Virus record (IMG/VR): IMGVR_UViG_3300034111_000639
Span: 1-37,312 of that record
DNA length: 37,312 nt
Reading direction: 5' to 3' (one strand)
Source: a virus
The position numbers and the translations under genes are program-made. A model generated the notes under the pieces. The model was not told the DNA's origin and made no database searches. It saw nothing but the letters and a program-made list of their open reading frames with translations. Each line of letters begins with the position of its first letter. Within the stretch, counting starts at the first letter, position 1. Positions 3,719 through 37,312 of the stretch are shown here, in pieces.

Positions 3719-3952
3719 ATGGCAATTACAATCTATACCACTGACGCAGTTGTCGTCATTGATAGCGACCTGTATGAGATCGAATTCGACGACGAAGTTG
3801 AGTGCGACGACGAAGACGGCGTCGAGTACGACGTTGACGGCGTGGCATGGTGGTACGACGAAGAAAATGACGTTGTGTATTTCTTCGACGACGAAGCAGA
3901 CGACTGGGTCGAGTACGAAGGCGAAGAAGACGAAGACGAAGGCGACGAGTAA
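3719..3952 (+). CDS. Extremely acidic small protein, possible DNA mimic
   Basis: A 77-residue protein in which 35 residues are Asp or Glu (about 45%) and there is no Lys, Arg or His. Aromatic residues (several Trp, Tyr and Phe) are spread between acidic runs, suggesting a folded protein and not only a disordered tail. GGGAG lies eight bases before the ATG. The gene has its own strong terminator 12 bases after the stop, which suggests a separate, abundant transcript; TAGAAT at 3672-3677 is a possible -10 but the -35 is poor. A short hairpin (ACGGC/GCCGT, 3684-3697) lies in the leader. Known phage proteins with this composition (T7 Ocr, for example) mimic DNA and block host enzymes. That role is an inference here; no family was recognised. 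Confidence 0.8.
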   Translation: MAITIYTTDAVVVIDSDLYEIEFDDEVECDDEDGVEYDVDGVAWWYDEENDVVYFFDDEADDWVEYEGEEDEDEGDE

Positions 3953-4348: not shown

Positions 4349-4599
4349 GTCGGACCCTCCAGCAGCGCTTCAGCAGCTTCGCGCTCGATATCCTTGATTA
4401 TATGGTCCTTCAGTAGATCAACCACGTCCACGCCGCCAGCGTACGCGTGAATGAGCCATGCGCCGCCATTCCAGCCTACAGACCGGTCCGCCGGCTCCCA
4501 ATCGACAAAGCAGAGCAATTCGGTGTCGCCGTGCGTGTACGTGTACGGCCACAGGTGCTGCGGCCACTGCGGGCCGCTGGTGTCAGTATGCGTTTTCAT
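4342..4599 (-). CDS. Hypothetical protein, 85 residues
   Basis: Not recognised. The start at 4599 (MKTHTDTSGPQ) is preferred to an upstream in-frame ATG because GGAGG lies nine bases before it. The protein is rich in Trp, Tyr and His in its first half (PQHLWPYTYTHGD, FVDWEPADRSVGWNGGAW) and ends in an acidic helix (LLKDHIIKDIEREAAEALL). It overlaps the end of the preceding gene by 17 bases and the start of the 19-residue microprotein. It is probably a small soluble accessory protein of the early leftward operon. Confidence 0.65.
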   Translation of the reverse strand: MKTHTDTSGPQWPQHLWPYTYTHGDTELLCFVDWEPADRSVGWNGGAWLIHAYAGGVDVVDLLKDHIIKDIEREAAEALLEGPTC

Positions 4600-4870
4600 T
4601 GGATAGATCCTCCAGTAACGGGATTGACGGGTCATATTGCGCAGTGCTTTCATTGTTTAATTCGGGCCAGTATTGGACCGGCACGCGAAAATTGAGCGCA
4701 TCATACTGTCGCACGTATTCAGCCGTGCTCAGGTCCGATCGGACCGGAAATTTCCGGATATCTTTTGGCTTTTTCGGTTTCCAGGCTTTGCGCGCCGCTT
4801 TGGCTAGTTCGACCGGATCCCGATCGAATTTCACTTTATAGGTGGTGCCGTCAATATTTATCGTCTGCAT
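4583..4870 (-). CDS. Hypothetical protein, 95 residues
   Basis: Not recognised. The ATG at 4870 is preceded by GGAGG with a spacing of about seven bases. The N terminus (MQTINIDGTTYKVKFDRDP) looks like a short beta-hairpin; a Lys/Pro/Arg-rich stretch (KAARKAWKPKKPKDIRK, about residues 24-40) follows and could contact nucleic acid. The C-terminal part is more acidic. Both ends overlap the neighbouring genes, so it is translated as part of the leftward operon. Confidence 0.7.
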   Translation of the reverse strand: MQTINIDGTTYKVKFDRDPVELAKAARKAWKPKKPKDIRKFPVRSDLSTAEYVRQYDALNFRVPVQYWPELNNESTAQYDPSIPLLEDLSNENAY

Positions 4871-6793: not shown

Positions 6794-7003
6794 ATGCCCG
6801 CCGGTAGACCCGCGTCGATTCGAACACGCAATTTCCTGCGCCATTTAACCGATACTGAAGCGGCGATATTGGCTCACGCCGGTGACGGCGATATCAGCGC
6901 CGGCTTTAAGAATCTACTTGACTGGTATCAGCAAATGCATTGCCAGGCTGACAATGCTAACGATTTGGTTATATCTGATATTGAGCCAAAGGGTAATAGT
7001 TGA
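6794..7003 (+). CDS. Putative small DNA-binding (RHH-like) protein
   Basis: A 69-residue protein. The pattern MPAGRPASIRTRNFLRHLTD, then a helix and DGDISAGFKNLLDWYQ, resembles small ribbon-helix-helix-like phage proteins in which a basic strand is followed by a helix, a Gly turn, ISxG and a second helix. AGGGG lies eight bases before the ATG at 6794. It sits alone between the TGTAGGC array and the GATAG array, the two main repeat regions of the genome, which makes it a good candidate for binding one of them. The family call is by eye and tentative; the last 20 residues are polar and look disordered. Confidence 0.6.
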   Translation: MPAGRPASIRTRNFLRHLTDTEAAILAHAGDGDISAGFKNLLDWYQQMHCQADNANDLVISDIEPKGNS

Positions 7004-7056
7004 CGGCTGTCAGGTACCGGCAAAAAGGCCCCGCTTCCCCTCGCTCAATTCCATCA

Positions 7057-7261
7057 GCCGATAGCCCACCCCTATCAATTCCTGGATATCGATAGTCACC
7101 CCTCTCGCTCATAGCCGCCAGCTATCGGCATGCGATCGCCTGCAATATAACGTGCGTTATGTAAAACGCGGCCGATAGCCGGCTGCTATCATTGGCGGCC
7201 GTTTGCTGGCGATTCGTTGCCTTTTTGATAGGGGGGAGGGGGGTCTGGCTGGCTATCAAAA
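7057..7261. repeat. Alternating GATAG/CTATC dyad array upstream of the terminase
   Basis: Eight pentamers alternate strictly in orientation: GATAG 7060, CTATC 7072, GATAG 7091, CTATC 7122, GATAG 7174, CTATC 7186, GATAG 7227, CTATC 7253. Two pairs share the same geometry, GATAG-N7-CTATC (7060-7076 and 7174-7190). The last pair extends to a 9-bp inverted repeat, TTTTGATAG (7223-7231) and CTATCAAAA (7253-7261), enclosing a G-rich loop with two runs of six G. The longer form GCCGATAGC is seen at 7057 and 7171, and inverted at 7121. The 375-base gap from 7004 to 7378 holds no other gene that I can support. A packaging site, an operator or an origin are all possible. Confidence 0.7.
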
Positions 7262-7378
7262 TTTGCAGGAGCCACCAACCCTCTGAAAAAGGGAAAATGG
7301 ACTTTTGCCCCTAGTCAGTAGTCTTGTAGCAAAAAAAAGCATACAATCCACGCAGCTTCCCGCTACAGGAAAAAAGCC

Positions 7379-7690
7379 ATGCCAGCACCGATTAAAGATC
7401 CGCCGTACGTGCCGCCAGCGACGCTGCCAAAGACTGACAATCAGCGCATCAAAGAATTAAAGAAGATGCTGATTGAAGGCCAAGGCGAGCAAGTCGTCCA
7501 GAAGGTACTAGACATCGCGTTAGAAGATGGCCACCCAGGCCAGATGGCAGCGCTCAAGATGTGCATGGACCGCGCACTGCCTGCCAGTATGTTTGAGAAG
7601 ACCGCCGCCCAGCGCAGCGCGATCAACATCACCATCTCGGGGCTTGCCGGCCCACCCGACATAAAGGACATCATCGATGTCGGACCTTAA
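7379..7690 (+). CDS. terS: Terminase small subunit (putative)
   Basis: A 103-residue protein whose stop overlaps the start of the large terminase by 14 bases, the classic position of a small subunit. The N terminus is proline-rich; the middle is helical (RIKELKKMLIEGQGEQVVQK) and the segment GHPGQMAALKMCMDRALP is of a type seen in phage small terminases. It should recognise the packaging site and deliver DNA to the large subunit. AGGA lies eight bases before the ATG. A TACAAT at 7342-7347 could be a -10, but no good -35 is present. The GATAG array directly upstream is an obvious candidate binding site. Confidence 0.7.
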   Translation: MPAPIKDPPYVPPATLPKTDNQRIKELKKMLIEGQGEQVVQKVLDIALEDGHPGQMAALKMCMDRALPASMFEKTAAQRSAINITISGLAGPPDIKDIIDVGP

Positions 7691-8936
7691 CTTCCAGCTG
7701 CTCCCGTGGCAGCAAGAAGTCTTCAACGACAACACACGCTTCAAGGTGGTCGCAGCTGGCCGGCGTTGTGGCAAGTCGAGGTTAGCGGCCACTACGCTGT
7801 TAATCGAGGGACTGCGCTGCCCGCCCGGCTCAGCGGTCTTGTACGTGGCGCCCACCAACGGACAGGCGCGCCAGATTATCTGGAACGTGTTGCTGGATCT
7901 GGGTCGGGAAGTGATCGCTGGCAGTCATGTGAACAACCAGGACATCACGCTGATCAACGGCGCGGTGATCTACGTGCGAGGCGCGGATCGCCCAGACACG
8001 CTGCGAGGCGTCTCGCTGACCTACGCGGTGCTGGACGAGGTTGCCGACATTAAGCCAGAAGCGTGGGAGCAGGTCATCCGCGCGTCTCTGTCGGACAAGA
8101 AGGGACGAGGACTGTTTATCGGTACGCCCAAGGGCAGGAACTGGTTCAACGACCTGTACAAGTTGGGGCAGACGGGCGATGACGAGGACTGGAAGAGCTG
8201 GCACTTCACGACCAAAGACAACCCGCTGATCGACCCGAAGGAAATCGAGTCAGCAAAAAAGACGCTATCGACGTTTGCATTTAAGCAAGAGTACATGGCA
8301 AGCTTCGACAACGCCGGATCTGACATTTTCAAAGAGGAATGGATCAAGCACGGCGAAGAGCCGGAGTACGGCAGCTACTTCGTGGCCGTGGACTTGGCAG
8401 GATTTGAGGAAGTGGCCAAGCAGGCAGCGAACTCGAAGAAGCGGCTGGATGAGACGGCGATTGCGATCGTGAAAGTGACAGACGACGGCAAGTGGTTCGT
8501 CAAAGACATCCAGCATGGGCGTTGGGACATCCGTGAGACGGCGGCTAAGATTCTCATGGCCATGCGCGACTACCGGCCTTTGAGCGTCGGGATCGAGCGC
8601 GGCGCGTTAAAAAACGCGGTTTTGCCGTATTTGAGTGACTTAATGCGCAAGAATAATGTATATTCTCACATAGTTGATCTCACGCATGGTAACCGGAAAA
8701 AGGCTGACCGGATCATCTGGAGCCTCCAGGGTCGGTTCGAGCATGGCAGGATCGTGCTGAACCAAGAAGGTGATTTTGAGACCTTTCTTGACCAGCTGTT
8801 GATGTTTCCAGCGCAAGGCGTCCACGATGACCTACCCGACGCGCTCTCTTACATTGACCAGCTGGCGGTGACTTCCTACTTCGAAGGCGACGCCGACGAT
8901 GACTGGGAGCCGATAGACGTAATTTCTGGGGTGTAA
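7677..8936 (+). CDS. terL: Terminase large subunit (ATPase-nuclease)
   Basis: A 419-residue packaging motor. Walker A is AAGRRCGKS (about residues 25-33); Walker B is TYAVLDE (about 115-121), with the catalytic Glu last. The C-terminal RNase-H-like nuclease shows VAVDLAG (about 236) and the late acidic pair DDLPDALSY (about 384). The length is at the short end for the family but the full two-domain order is present. The protein docks on the portal, encoded two bases downstream. Confidence 0.93.
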   Translation: MSDLNFQLLPWQQEVFNDNTRFKVVAAGRRCGKSRLAATTLLIEGLRCPPGSAVLYVAPTNGQARQIIWNVLLDLGREVIAGSHVNNQDITLINGAVIYVRGADRPDTLRGVSLTYAVLDEVADIKPEAWEQVIRASLSDKKGRGLFIGTPKGRNWFNDLYKLGQTGDDEDWKSWHFTTKDNPLIDPKEIESAKKTLSTFAFKQEYMASFDNAGSDIFKEEWIKHGEEPEYGSYFVAVDLAGFEEVAKQAANSKKRLDETAIAIVKVTDDGKWFVKDIQHGRWDIRETAAKILMAMRDYRPLSVGIERGALKNAVLPYLSDLMRKNNVYSHIVDLTHGNRKKADRIIWSLQGRFEHGRIVLNQEGDFETFLDQLLMFPAQGVHDDLPDALSYIDQLAVTSYFEGDADDDWEPIDVISGV

Positions 8937-35560: not shown

Positions 35561-37312
35561 CTTTGAAACCCGGTCGAAGTGCGACCTATCCTCACGGGGA
35601 GTTTATAACTATGCTCAAGACGGTACCACCGATGTACTTTGTATGTCCTACGCGTTTGACGACGATGAGGTTGTCACCTGGACTCCCGATCAACCGTTCC
35701 CTGACGCTGTACGCCAGCACACCGGGCAGATATACGCGCACAATGCTGCCTTTGAGCGCCTCATCTTCTGGTACGTCTTACAGTGTAACTTTCAACTCGA
35801 GCAGTTCTACTGCACCGCTACGCAAGCGCGTGCTAACTGCTTACCTGGCAGCCTTGAAGACGTCGGTCGCGCCATCTCCAGCGTCATGCGCAAAGACCAC
35901 CGAGGAAATCAACTTATTCGATTGCTTTCCATCCCACGTAGCGATGGAACTTTTAGCACTGACCCGGCCTTGATGGCCGAGATGGTCCAGTATTGCGAGC
36001 AGGACGTACGTGCCATGCGCGCAGTGTCCAAGGCCATGCGTCCACTGTCCGAGCAGGAGCTGGCCGACTACCACGTCAACGAGCGCATCAACGACCGTGG
36101 CGTGCTGCTTGACTTGCCACTGGCGCAGGCGGCCATGCGGTACGCGTCCGTCGAGCTGGAAGAGATCGAGACGCTGGTCGCCGATGTGACCGAGGGCGAG
36201 ATCAAGTCGGTGCGCAGCCCCAAGATGAAGCAGTGGGTAATCGACCGTGTCGGCCCGCAGGCGTTAAAGATGATGGAGACCTACAAGGACGGCGACTTAA
36301 AGTATTCTATCGACAAGTCAGTACGCGCTAATTTACTTATATTTGCAGAGGAAAACCCCGATGAGATTCCGGCCCATGTTGCGGACGTCATTCAATGCGC
36401 AGATGATCTCTGGGCGTCGTCGGTTGCGAAGTTCAGCCGCCTTGCGAGTCTGGCAGACGAAGACGATCACCGAGTACGAGGTGCTTTTGTCTTCGCTGGA
36501 GGCTCTGCCACTGGACGAGCTTCGTCGTACGGCGCGCAGGTCCATAACTTCACACGCAAGTGCGCCGACGAGCCAGACGACGTTAGGCACGCTATGGTTA
36601 GAGGGCACAGCATCACGCCGCGATTTGGAAAACGCGTTACAGATGTTCTCAAGGGAATGCTCCGGCCCGCACTGATACCGGCACCCGGCAAGCAGTTCGT
36701 TGCAGCTGACTGGTCAGCAGTCGAAGCCCGCGTGACAGCCTGGGCATCAGCCGACCCGCAGGCCGAGGACGTGCTGCAAGTCTTTCGCGATGGTCGCGAC
36801 ATCTACAAGCGTGAAGCCGCCGGTATCTACCGCGTGGCCGAGGACGCAGTCGATAAAGAGCAGCGCCAGATTGGTAAGGTTGCCATTCTGTCACTTGGCT
36901 TTGGCGGTGCTGTTGGCGCCTTCAGCGCAATGGGGCGTGCATACGGTGTGTATATGGCAGAGTCGGATTCGCGTCGGATTGTAGACGCATGGCGCCGCGC
37001 TAATGCGTGGGCAGTGCGTTACTGGGACAAGCTCGAGAGCGCCTACACGCGGGCGCTACGCAACCCGAACCGGGAGTTCTCAGCCGGGCGCGTTACCTAT
37101 ATGTACGACGGGCGGCATCTCTGGTACGCGCTGCCGTCGGGGCGTGTGCTGTGTTACCCGTTTGCTAAGTTTGACGGCGACGAGATCACGTACGTCAAAG
37201 CAGCCTGGAAACCAGCAGCGGATGCGACCGAATGGCCGCGCGCCCGCTTGTGGCGCGGGCTCGCTTGTGAGAACATAACGCAAGCGATCGCCAACGATCT
37301 GCTACGGCATGC
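35541..37312 (+). CDS. polA: DNA polymerase I (family A) with 3'-5' exonuclease, N-terminal part
   Basis: Start TTG 35541, with GGAG five to ten bases upstream inside the methyltransferase gene. The frame runs off the contig end and continues at position 3 of the window, giving 647 residues. Exonuclease motifs: WLDFET (Exo I, about residue 5), YAHNAAFERL (Exo II, about 67), YCEQDVRA (Exo III, about 155). Polymerase motif A is AADWSAVEAR, with catalytic Asp390. Motif B is RQIGKVAILSLGFGG (residues 442-456). By alignment to E. coli Pol I, Arg442 and Lys446 match R754 and K758, Leu450 takes the place of Phe762, and Phe454 that of Tyr766. The Leu variant is known from environmental phages. It is the replicative polymerase of this phage. 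Confidence 0.93.
   Translation, partial: MSVLWLDFETRSKCDLSSRGVYNYAQDGTTDVLCMSYAFDDDEVVTWTPDQPFPDAVRQHTGQIYAHNAAFERLIFWYVLQCNFQLEQFYCTATQARANCLPGSLEDVGRAISSVMRKDHRGNQLIRLLSIPRSDGTFSTDPALMAEMVQYCEQDVRAMRAVSKAMRPLSEQELADYHVNERINDRGVLLDLPLAQAAMRYASVELEEIETLVADVTEGEIKSVRSPKMKQWVIDRVGPQALKMMETYKDGDLKYSIDKSVRANLLIFAEENPDEIPAHVADVIQCADDLWASSVAKFSRLASLADEDDHRVRGAFVFAGGSATGRASSYGAQVHNFTRKCADEPDDVRHAMVRGHSITPRFGKRVTDVLKGMLRPALIPAPGKQFVAADWSAVEARVTAWASADPQAEDVLQVFRDGRDIYKREAAGIYRVAEDAVDKEQRQIGKVAILSLGFGGAVGAFSAMGRAYGVYMAESDSRRIVDAWRRANAWAVRYWDKLESAYTRALRNPNREFSAGRVTYMYDGRHLWYALPSGRVLCYPFAKFDGDEITYVKAAWKPAADATEWPRARLWRGLACENITQAIANDLLRH
37186..37312. repeat. Terminal direct repeat (right copy)
   Basis: Exact copy of bases 1-127, lying inside the polymerase gene. 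See the left copy for interpretation. Confidence 0.95.

Follow-up and report, generated by a model that had tools for sequence, protein, structure and literature searches.

The intergenic region directly upstream of the terminase genes in the viral contig IMGVR_UViG_3300034111_000639 is crowded with GATAG and CTATC pentamers, which raises the question of whether these sequences serve DNA packaging, transcription or replication. The window, meaning the whole stretch of DNA that was analysed, comprises positions 1-37,312 of that record on one strand. Its ends (1-127 and 37186-37312) are identical and form a repeat of 127 bp, and the junction is spanned by a frame that Pfam recognises as DNA polymerase A, thus the window is a circularly closed phage genome and not a fragment. 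The genes are ordered as primase, metallophosphoesterase, a gp88-like gene on the minus strand, a 69-aa protein, terS, terL and an SU10/P22-like portal, followed by tail fibres, capsid, lysis genes, helicase, exonuclease, methyltransferase and polymerase. No cultured relative was found at the DNA level beyond a weak match in a neighbouring gene, and TerS and the 69-aa protein had no match among 50,697 phage records. Hundreds of relatives exist among the collected viral contigs, and comparison with these forms the basis of what follows. In another part of the window (about 3740-3950), the pentamer GACGA occurs 12 times in about 205 bp of a coding stretch rich in Asp and Glu. The coordinates of the features are collected in Table 1.

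Table 1. Features of the terminase locus and associated genes, with positions in the window.
Feature	Position	Strand	Remarks
95-aa ORF	4583..4870	-	no family; its presence mostly goes with that of the dyads; possible phage-encoded partner, as a weak candidate
69-aa protein	6794..7003	+	family not described before; two helices predicted; precedes terS in most relatives; 72 distinct sequences
Conserved block CAGGTACCGGCAAAAAGGCCCC	7011..7032		left edge of the region, from the alignment
Dyad 1, ATAGCCCACCCCTAT (ATAG-N7-CTAT)	7061..7075		right arm 1.0 (invariant), left arm 0.86, spacer 0.60 in 18 close relatives
Isolated GATAG half-site	7091..7095		98% conserved in close relatives
Dyad 2, ATAGCCGCCAGCTAT	7111..7125		arms 0.99 and 1.0, spacer 0.74 in 18 close relatives
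Central palindromic element ATAACGTGCGTTATGTAAAA	7147..7166		0.96 conserved in 18 close relatives
Dyad 3, ATAGCCGGCTGCTAT	7175..7189		both arms 1.0, spacer 0.78 in 18 close relatives
Fourth inverted repeat (TTTTGATAG ... CTATCAAAA)	7223..7261		present in the sequence; right arm not conserved
G-core, candidate packaging-start element	about 7226..7301	+	GATA-GGGGGGAGGGGGG, then a block from AAAATTTGCAGGAGCCACCAACCC to an A-rich end; 111 distinct sequences aligned
terS candidate, 103 aa	7379..7690	+	assigned by position; no family match
terL, large terminase subunit	7677..8936	+	phrog_2 (E 1e-46), Terminase_6N

The initial annotation described eight pentamers forming four dyads, a number beyond chance. 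Their positions (7060, 7072, 7091, 7122, 7174, 7186, 7227 and 7253) and strict alternation are real, but the conserved unit is a single dyad, ATAG-N7-CTAT, present three times. The excess is confirmed locally, with a mean of 0.65 and a maximum of 5 pentamers in dinucleotide shuffles of 7004-7378 and none of 5000 shuffles reaching eight, but when the whole window is shuffled, chance alone brings some pentamer to 6-9 copies per 205 bp. The pentamer count alone is weak evidence because the test is post hoc and any pentamer may reach such numbers. The 15-bp dyad is more specific: it occurs three times in the region and nowhere else in 37,312 bp.

The four proposed dyads differ in how they fare. 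The second had been paired as GATAG at 7091 with CTATC at 7122, whereas the correct pair is ATAG at 7111 with CTAT at 7122, where the left flank is C. This leaves GATAG at 7091 as an isolated half-site, with 31 bp, or 3 helical turns, between its ATAG and that of dyad 1. The fourth is a true inverted repeat with 9-bp arms (7223-7231 and 7253-7261), but its right arm has a mean conservation of 0.53 in 18 close relatives compared with 1.0 for the arms of dyad 3, and its G-rich loop is part of a separate, nearly universal element, the G-core. The right-hand CTATC of this repeat is common only to L015, L019, L020 and L023, and the stretch 7192-7222, between dyad 3 and the fourth repeat, has a conservation of 0.65 in the 18 close relatives.

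The array was looked for upstream of terS in the relatives, as had been proposed, and at least two copies of ATAG-N7-CTAT were found in 35 distinct regions, some of them devoid of GATAG. In an unbiased scan of the regions upstream of terS with all 4-mers at spacings of 0-13, ATAG-N7-CTAT ranks first with those 35 regions with at least two copies, and the runner-up has 12. Nearly all ATAG-N7-CTAT sites in ten near-complete genomes are found at the locus upstream of terS, and the central palindrome is present in all regions having at least two dyads. The geometry noted earlier, GATAG-N7-CTATC, is strong except for its outer bases, since in L028-L034 three ATAG-N7-CTAT dyads are retained although GATAG is scarce, which means that the outer G and C are not essential. 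The spacer varies widely among 94 distinct dyad instances, and left-arm substitutions appear without compensation on the right, as in GTAG...CTAT in L094-L096. Uncompensated arm changes and drifting spacers fit protein-DNA recognition and do not fit RNA structure. Searches with Rfam and for tRNA gave no hits. The array is real and looks functional.

Two further repeats were seen in these regions. A second dyad type around AGTnAGTGCTTACTAAC occurs just upstream of the G-core in L004, L030-L032, L087-L093 and L158-L183, either between dyad 3 and the G-core or in place of dyad 3, and beside the G-core in distant relatives. A block, GGGTCTGACCCTAATTAA, is repeated on either strand in the intergenic regions upstream of terS in L002, L005, L010, L014 and L030-L034, at times in place of the left arm of dyad 1.

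The dyads are arranged with a phase of about 10.4-10.5 bp around the conserved palindrome. Measured from its central TTATGT anchor, exact dyads lie at about -96, -65, -55, -45, +18 and +29; one group has additional dyads between -159 and -211. The Rayleigh R is 0.97 for these six main positions (a value reached by none of 5000 random sets) and the best period within 6-25 bp for twelve position clusters is 10.4 bp (P = 0.002); these P values are optimistic because the six positions were picked after inspection, kin sequences share positions with few independent indel events behind the test, and two dyads, dyad 1 of L019 and the far-left dyad of L034, are out of phase. The distance from dyad 2 to dyad 3 is 63-64 bp in one clade, 73-74 bp in two others and 94 bp in L087 and L088, corresponding to approximately six, seven and nine helical turns.

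A 15-bp inverted repeat of the form ATAG-N7-CTAT is the definition of an OxyR operator (PMC5002191), and the dyads, which have the geometry of LysR-type sites, are identical to the OxyR box in arms and spacing. In E. coli, the oxyR-oxyS control region contains this 15-bp repeat three times, with 22 and 31 bp between centres and contacts on one DNA face (PMC5002191). The window also has three repeats in one region, but its strong dyads have starts separated by 50 and 64 bp, and no enrichment of the inner T and A is seen. OxyR-type sites are known from other phages. Host OxyR binds the site ATAGTCTTGCTCTAT in the xisF4 promoter of Pf4, and mutation of the site abolishes binding in EMSA (PMC12395586). 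The Pf4 site is likewise an ATAG-N7-CTAT dyad on phage DNA lacking the inner T and A; Pf4, however, is a filamentous phage with a single site in a lysogeny switch, whereas here several phased sites precede the terminase genes of a tailed phage. Among tailed phages, the gtr operator of P22 contains three putative OxyR half-sites (PMC2909390) and the mom promoter of phage Mu has an OxyR site according to Hattman and Sun 1997, as cited in PMC2909390. These sites also lie in control regions, but they are coupled to Dam methylation of GATC sites and control genes other than the terminase operon.

The favoured reading, ranked above a packaging-protein array, a phage-encoded regulator and a replication origin, is that the dyads are a phased operator array for LysR-type dimers, most likely the host OxyR or a close paralogue, controlling late genes. 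It is put forward tentatively, from sequence comparison. Each of the two or three 15-bp sites would bind one dimer, the bound dimers would form a single nucleoprotein complex, and this complex would set how the rightward terminase operon (terS, terL and portal) is transcribed, so that the late phase would be tied to the peroxide or redox state of the host. The neighbouring G-core would act separately, more likely as a packaging start.

Several observations weaken the OxyR reading. The inner bases of the OxyR site, ATAGnTnnnAnCTAT, are not enriched, with T at position 6 in 26 and A at position 10 in 17 of the 94 distinct dyads. The 22-bp tandem spacing of the oxidised OxyR tetramer is absent from the window; a 31-bp distance between dyad and half-site and pairs at 19-20 bp do occur, and the dyads are in helical phase. 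No sigma-70-like promoter was found in 7004-7378 and no LysR-type gene was seen in the phage. In addition, L047-L059 lack dyads despite having the same upstream gene and the central palindrome, and the two dyads mentioned above are out of phase. The dyads would thus work like an OxyR-type array, yet they are not classed as one.

A possible link to a host is suggested by the sister-phage contig L270, which lies in the betaproteobacterial MAG G023, a link that consists of this one 4.7-kb contig. In genomes related to G023, rubrerythrin, a gene identified by its sequence and related to peroxide, is preceded by a tandem box resembling that of OxyR, with the sequence ATTGTATTTATCAAT-N7-ATAGSTTTTTGCTAT or one close to it. 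The dyad in L270, ATAGGTTTTCGCTAT, is one spacer base off one of these boxes.

The position directly upstream of terS had led to the suggestion of a packaging (pac/cos-like) site. Packaging regions such as cosB of lambda (R sites and IHF) and those of the pac phages SPP1, P22 and P1 have repeats read by the cognate small terminase. The present locus resembles these in having repeated putative protein-binding sites beside the small-terminase gene, phased around a central site, but it differs in that the dyads are lost and gained regardless of TerS and that no fixed DNA end is seen. Dyads are missing in L047-L059, where TerS is 75-82% identical, and present in L087-L102, where it is 65-67% identical. 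Tracking of the dyads with TerS, TerL or the 69-aa protein was considered and rejected, as presence and absence across the relatives follow none of them. The operator explanation, which had been the alternative from the start, is favoured for the dyads because they are independent of the terminase.

The whole region may instead be a single pac site, in which the dyads bind TerS, alone or with the 69-aa protein, and the G-core takes the first headful cut. This is unlikely, although it has several points in its favour besides the position of the array: the G-core is found in all readable relatives even when 1.5-1.7 kb away from terS, the circularly closed and permuted maps suit headful packaging, and TerS of this clade is without an evident DNA-binding domain, to which can be added a clade-confounded contrast between TerS proteins with an AT-hook and the presence of the 69-aa gene. 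Apart from the TerS identities given above, it is contradicted by L054, where the 69-aa protein is 76% identical over the matched stretch and there are no dyads, and by the lack of dyads in most relatives that have the G-core but no central palindrome.

A regulator encoded by the phage itself, dimeric and not a LysR-type protein of the host, could also use the dyads as an operator, and is a rather improbable candidate. One possibility is the 69-aa protein, which is of small size, contains two helices and adjoins the array. The 95-aa product is the other possibility; its ORF is found in nearly all regions with at least two dyads that are readable that far and is absent in L050, L052, L054 and the outer groups lacking dyads. 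On the other hand, L058 and L212 have the ORF without dyads, L116 has a dyad without the ORF, and the co-occurrence may reflect shared ancestry. For neither protein could a DNA-binding family or fold be recognised.

In contrast to the dyads, the G-core always accompanies the terminase. It consists of the G-run and a right-hand block downstream of dyad 3, is overlapped by the fourth inverted repeat, and has the consensus ttgataGGGGGGGagGGGgt...AAaAtTTgcgGgtgCCtCc.aCCCaCa.aAAAAgg.AAA among 111 distinct sequences. All relatives that are readable there have it upstream of terS, even those without dyads, central element or 69-aa gene, and it reaches phages with TerL that is 62-74% identical; in L106 and L145 it lies 1.5-1.7 kb upstream of terS. 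No counterpart was found among the families and papers examined. Phage SSU5, which gave the best partial match to TerL, was set aside as a relative, since the 840 bp examined from the start of its record contain no G-run. A role as an RNA hairpin was also rejected, as there are only four almost invariant pairs and the covariation is unconvincing.

The packaging suggestion therefore fits the G-core rather than the dyads, which do not follow TerS as a pac site follows its cognate small terminase, even though the region lies next to terS as such a site does. The G-core is probably the better candidate for a packaging start, judging from its conservation with the terminase genes. A cos-like fixed end is disfavoured: the window is a circle with a 127-bp repeat, and five of the nine near-complete relatives have their closure elsewhere on the map. 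Closed contigs at different positions make one fixed cos end unlikely and fit headful packaging, but cellular DNA, which may be the source, also gives closed contigs. The contig ends of the relatives form no pile-up at a single base. They are diffusely enriched within the array, 80-190 bp before the G-core, which may reflect either assembly breakage or real DNA ends.

The same sequence features could be read as part of a replication origin, with iterons, a palindrome and a G-run forming an R-loop. The iteron-like repeats, the palindrome and a G-run on the non-template strand beside an A/T patch and an A-run agree with this, but the primase gene is 5 kb off (224-2647), there is no clear switch in GC skew at 7.0-7.4 kb and the association of the region is with terS, making an origin very improbable.

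The 69-aa protein had been suspected as a binding partner of the array. It is a member of a genuine family that is conserved next to terS, but the dyads do not track with it. No relative was found in Pfam, PHROGs or PDB and no fold match was obtained with a model of pLDDT 78.7; an identity as a ribbon-helix-helix protein, suggested by the sequence, is not claimed, as there was no match in family, sequence or fold. The 103-aa TerS has no separate or recognised DNA-binding domain, and its structure model was unusable (pLDDT 55). In most relatives that lack the 69-aa gene, an AT-hook is fused to the N-terminus of TerS (L113, L115, L118, L131, L106 and others), and in L106 an HTH-like stretch together with an AT-hook is fused to this end. 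An AT-hook (GRPKG or similar) was found in TerS in 2 of 69 distinct cases with the 69-aa gene and in 10 of 14 scored as being without it (Fisher 2e-9, with L212 and L217 left out as apparent misses of the search pattern), a contrast confounded by clade in that one clade dominates and there are few independent events. This distribution suggests that the 69-aa protein may be a detached DNA-recognition part of TerS.

The observations can be combined in a joint model in which packaging starts at the G-core in a large group of uncultured phages, their small terminase is split into the 103-aa protein and a 69-aa DNA-recognition subunit replacing the HTH-like or AT-hook N-terminus that relatives have fused to TerS, and, in the present clade, host OxyR-type dimers on the dyads flanking the start couple peroxide stress to packaging or late expression. 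As a whole this combination is doubtful, with little likelihood that all its parts hold together.

The G-core is a compact and searchable element. If it is the packaging start, it would offer a sequence-based approach to packaging in phages that lack cultured relatives, and the 69-aa protein would become a testable candidate for one component of a split small terminase. Binding of the dyads by OxyR or a paralogue would mean that an abundant group of uncultured phages senses the peroxide state of the host at the entry to the late genes. This would be a use in the lytic phase of a regulator that so far has been tied mainly to phase variation and prophage switches.
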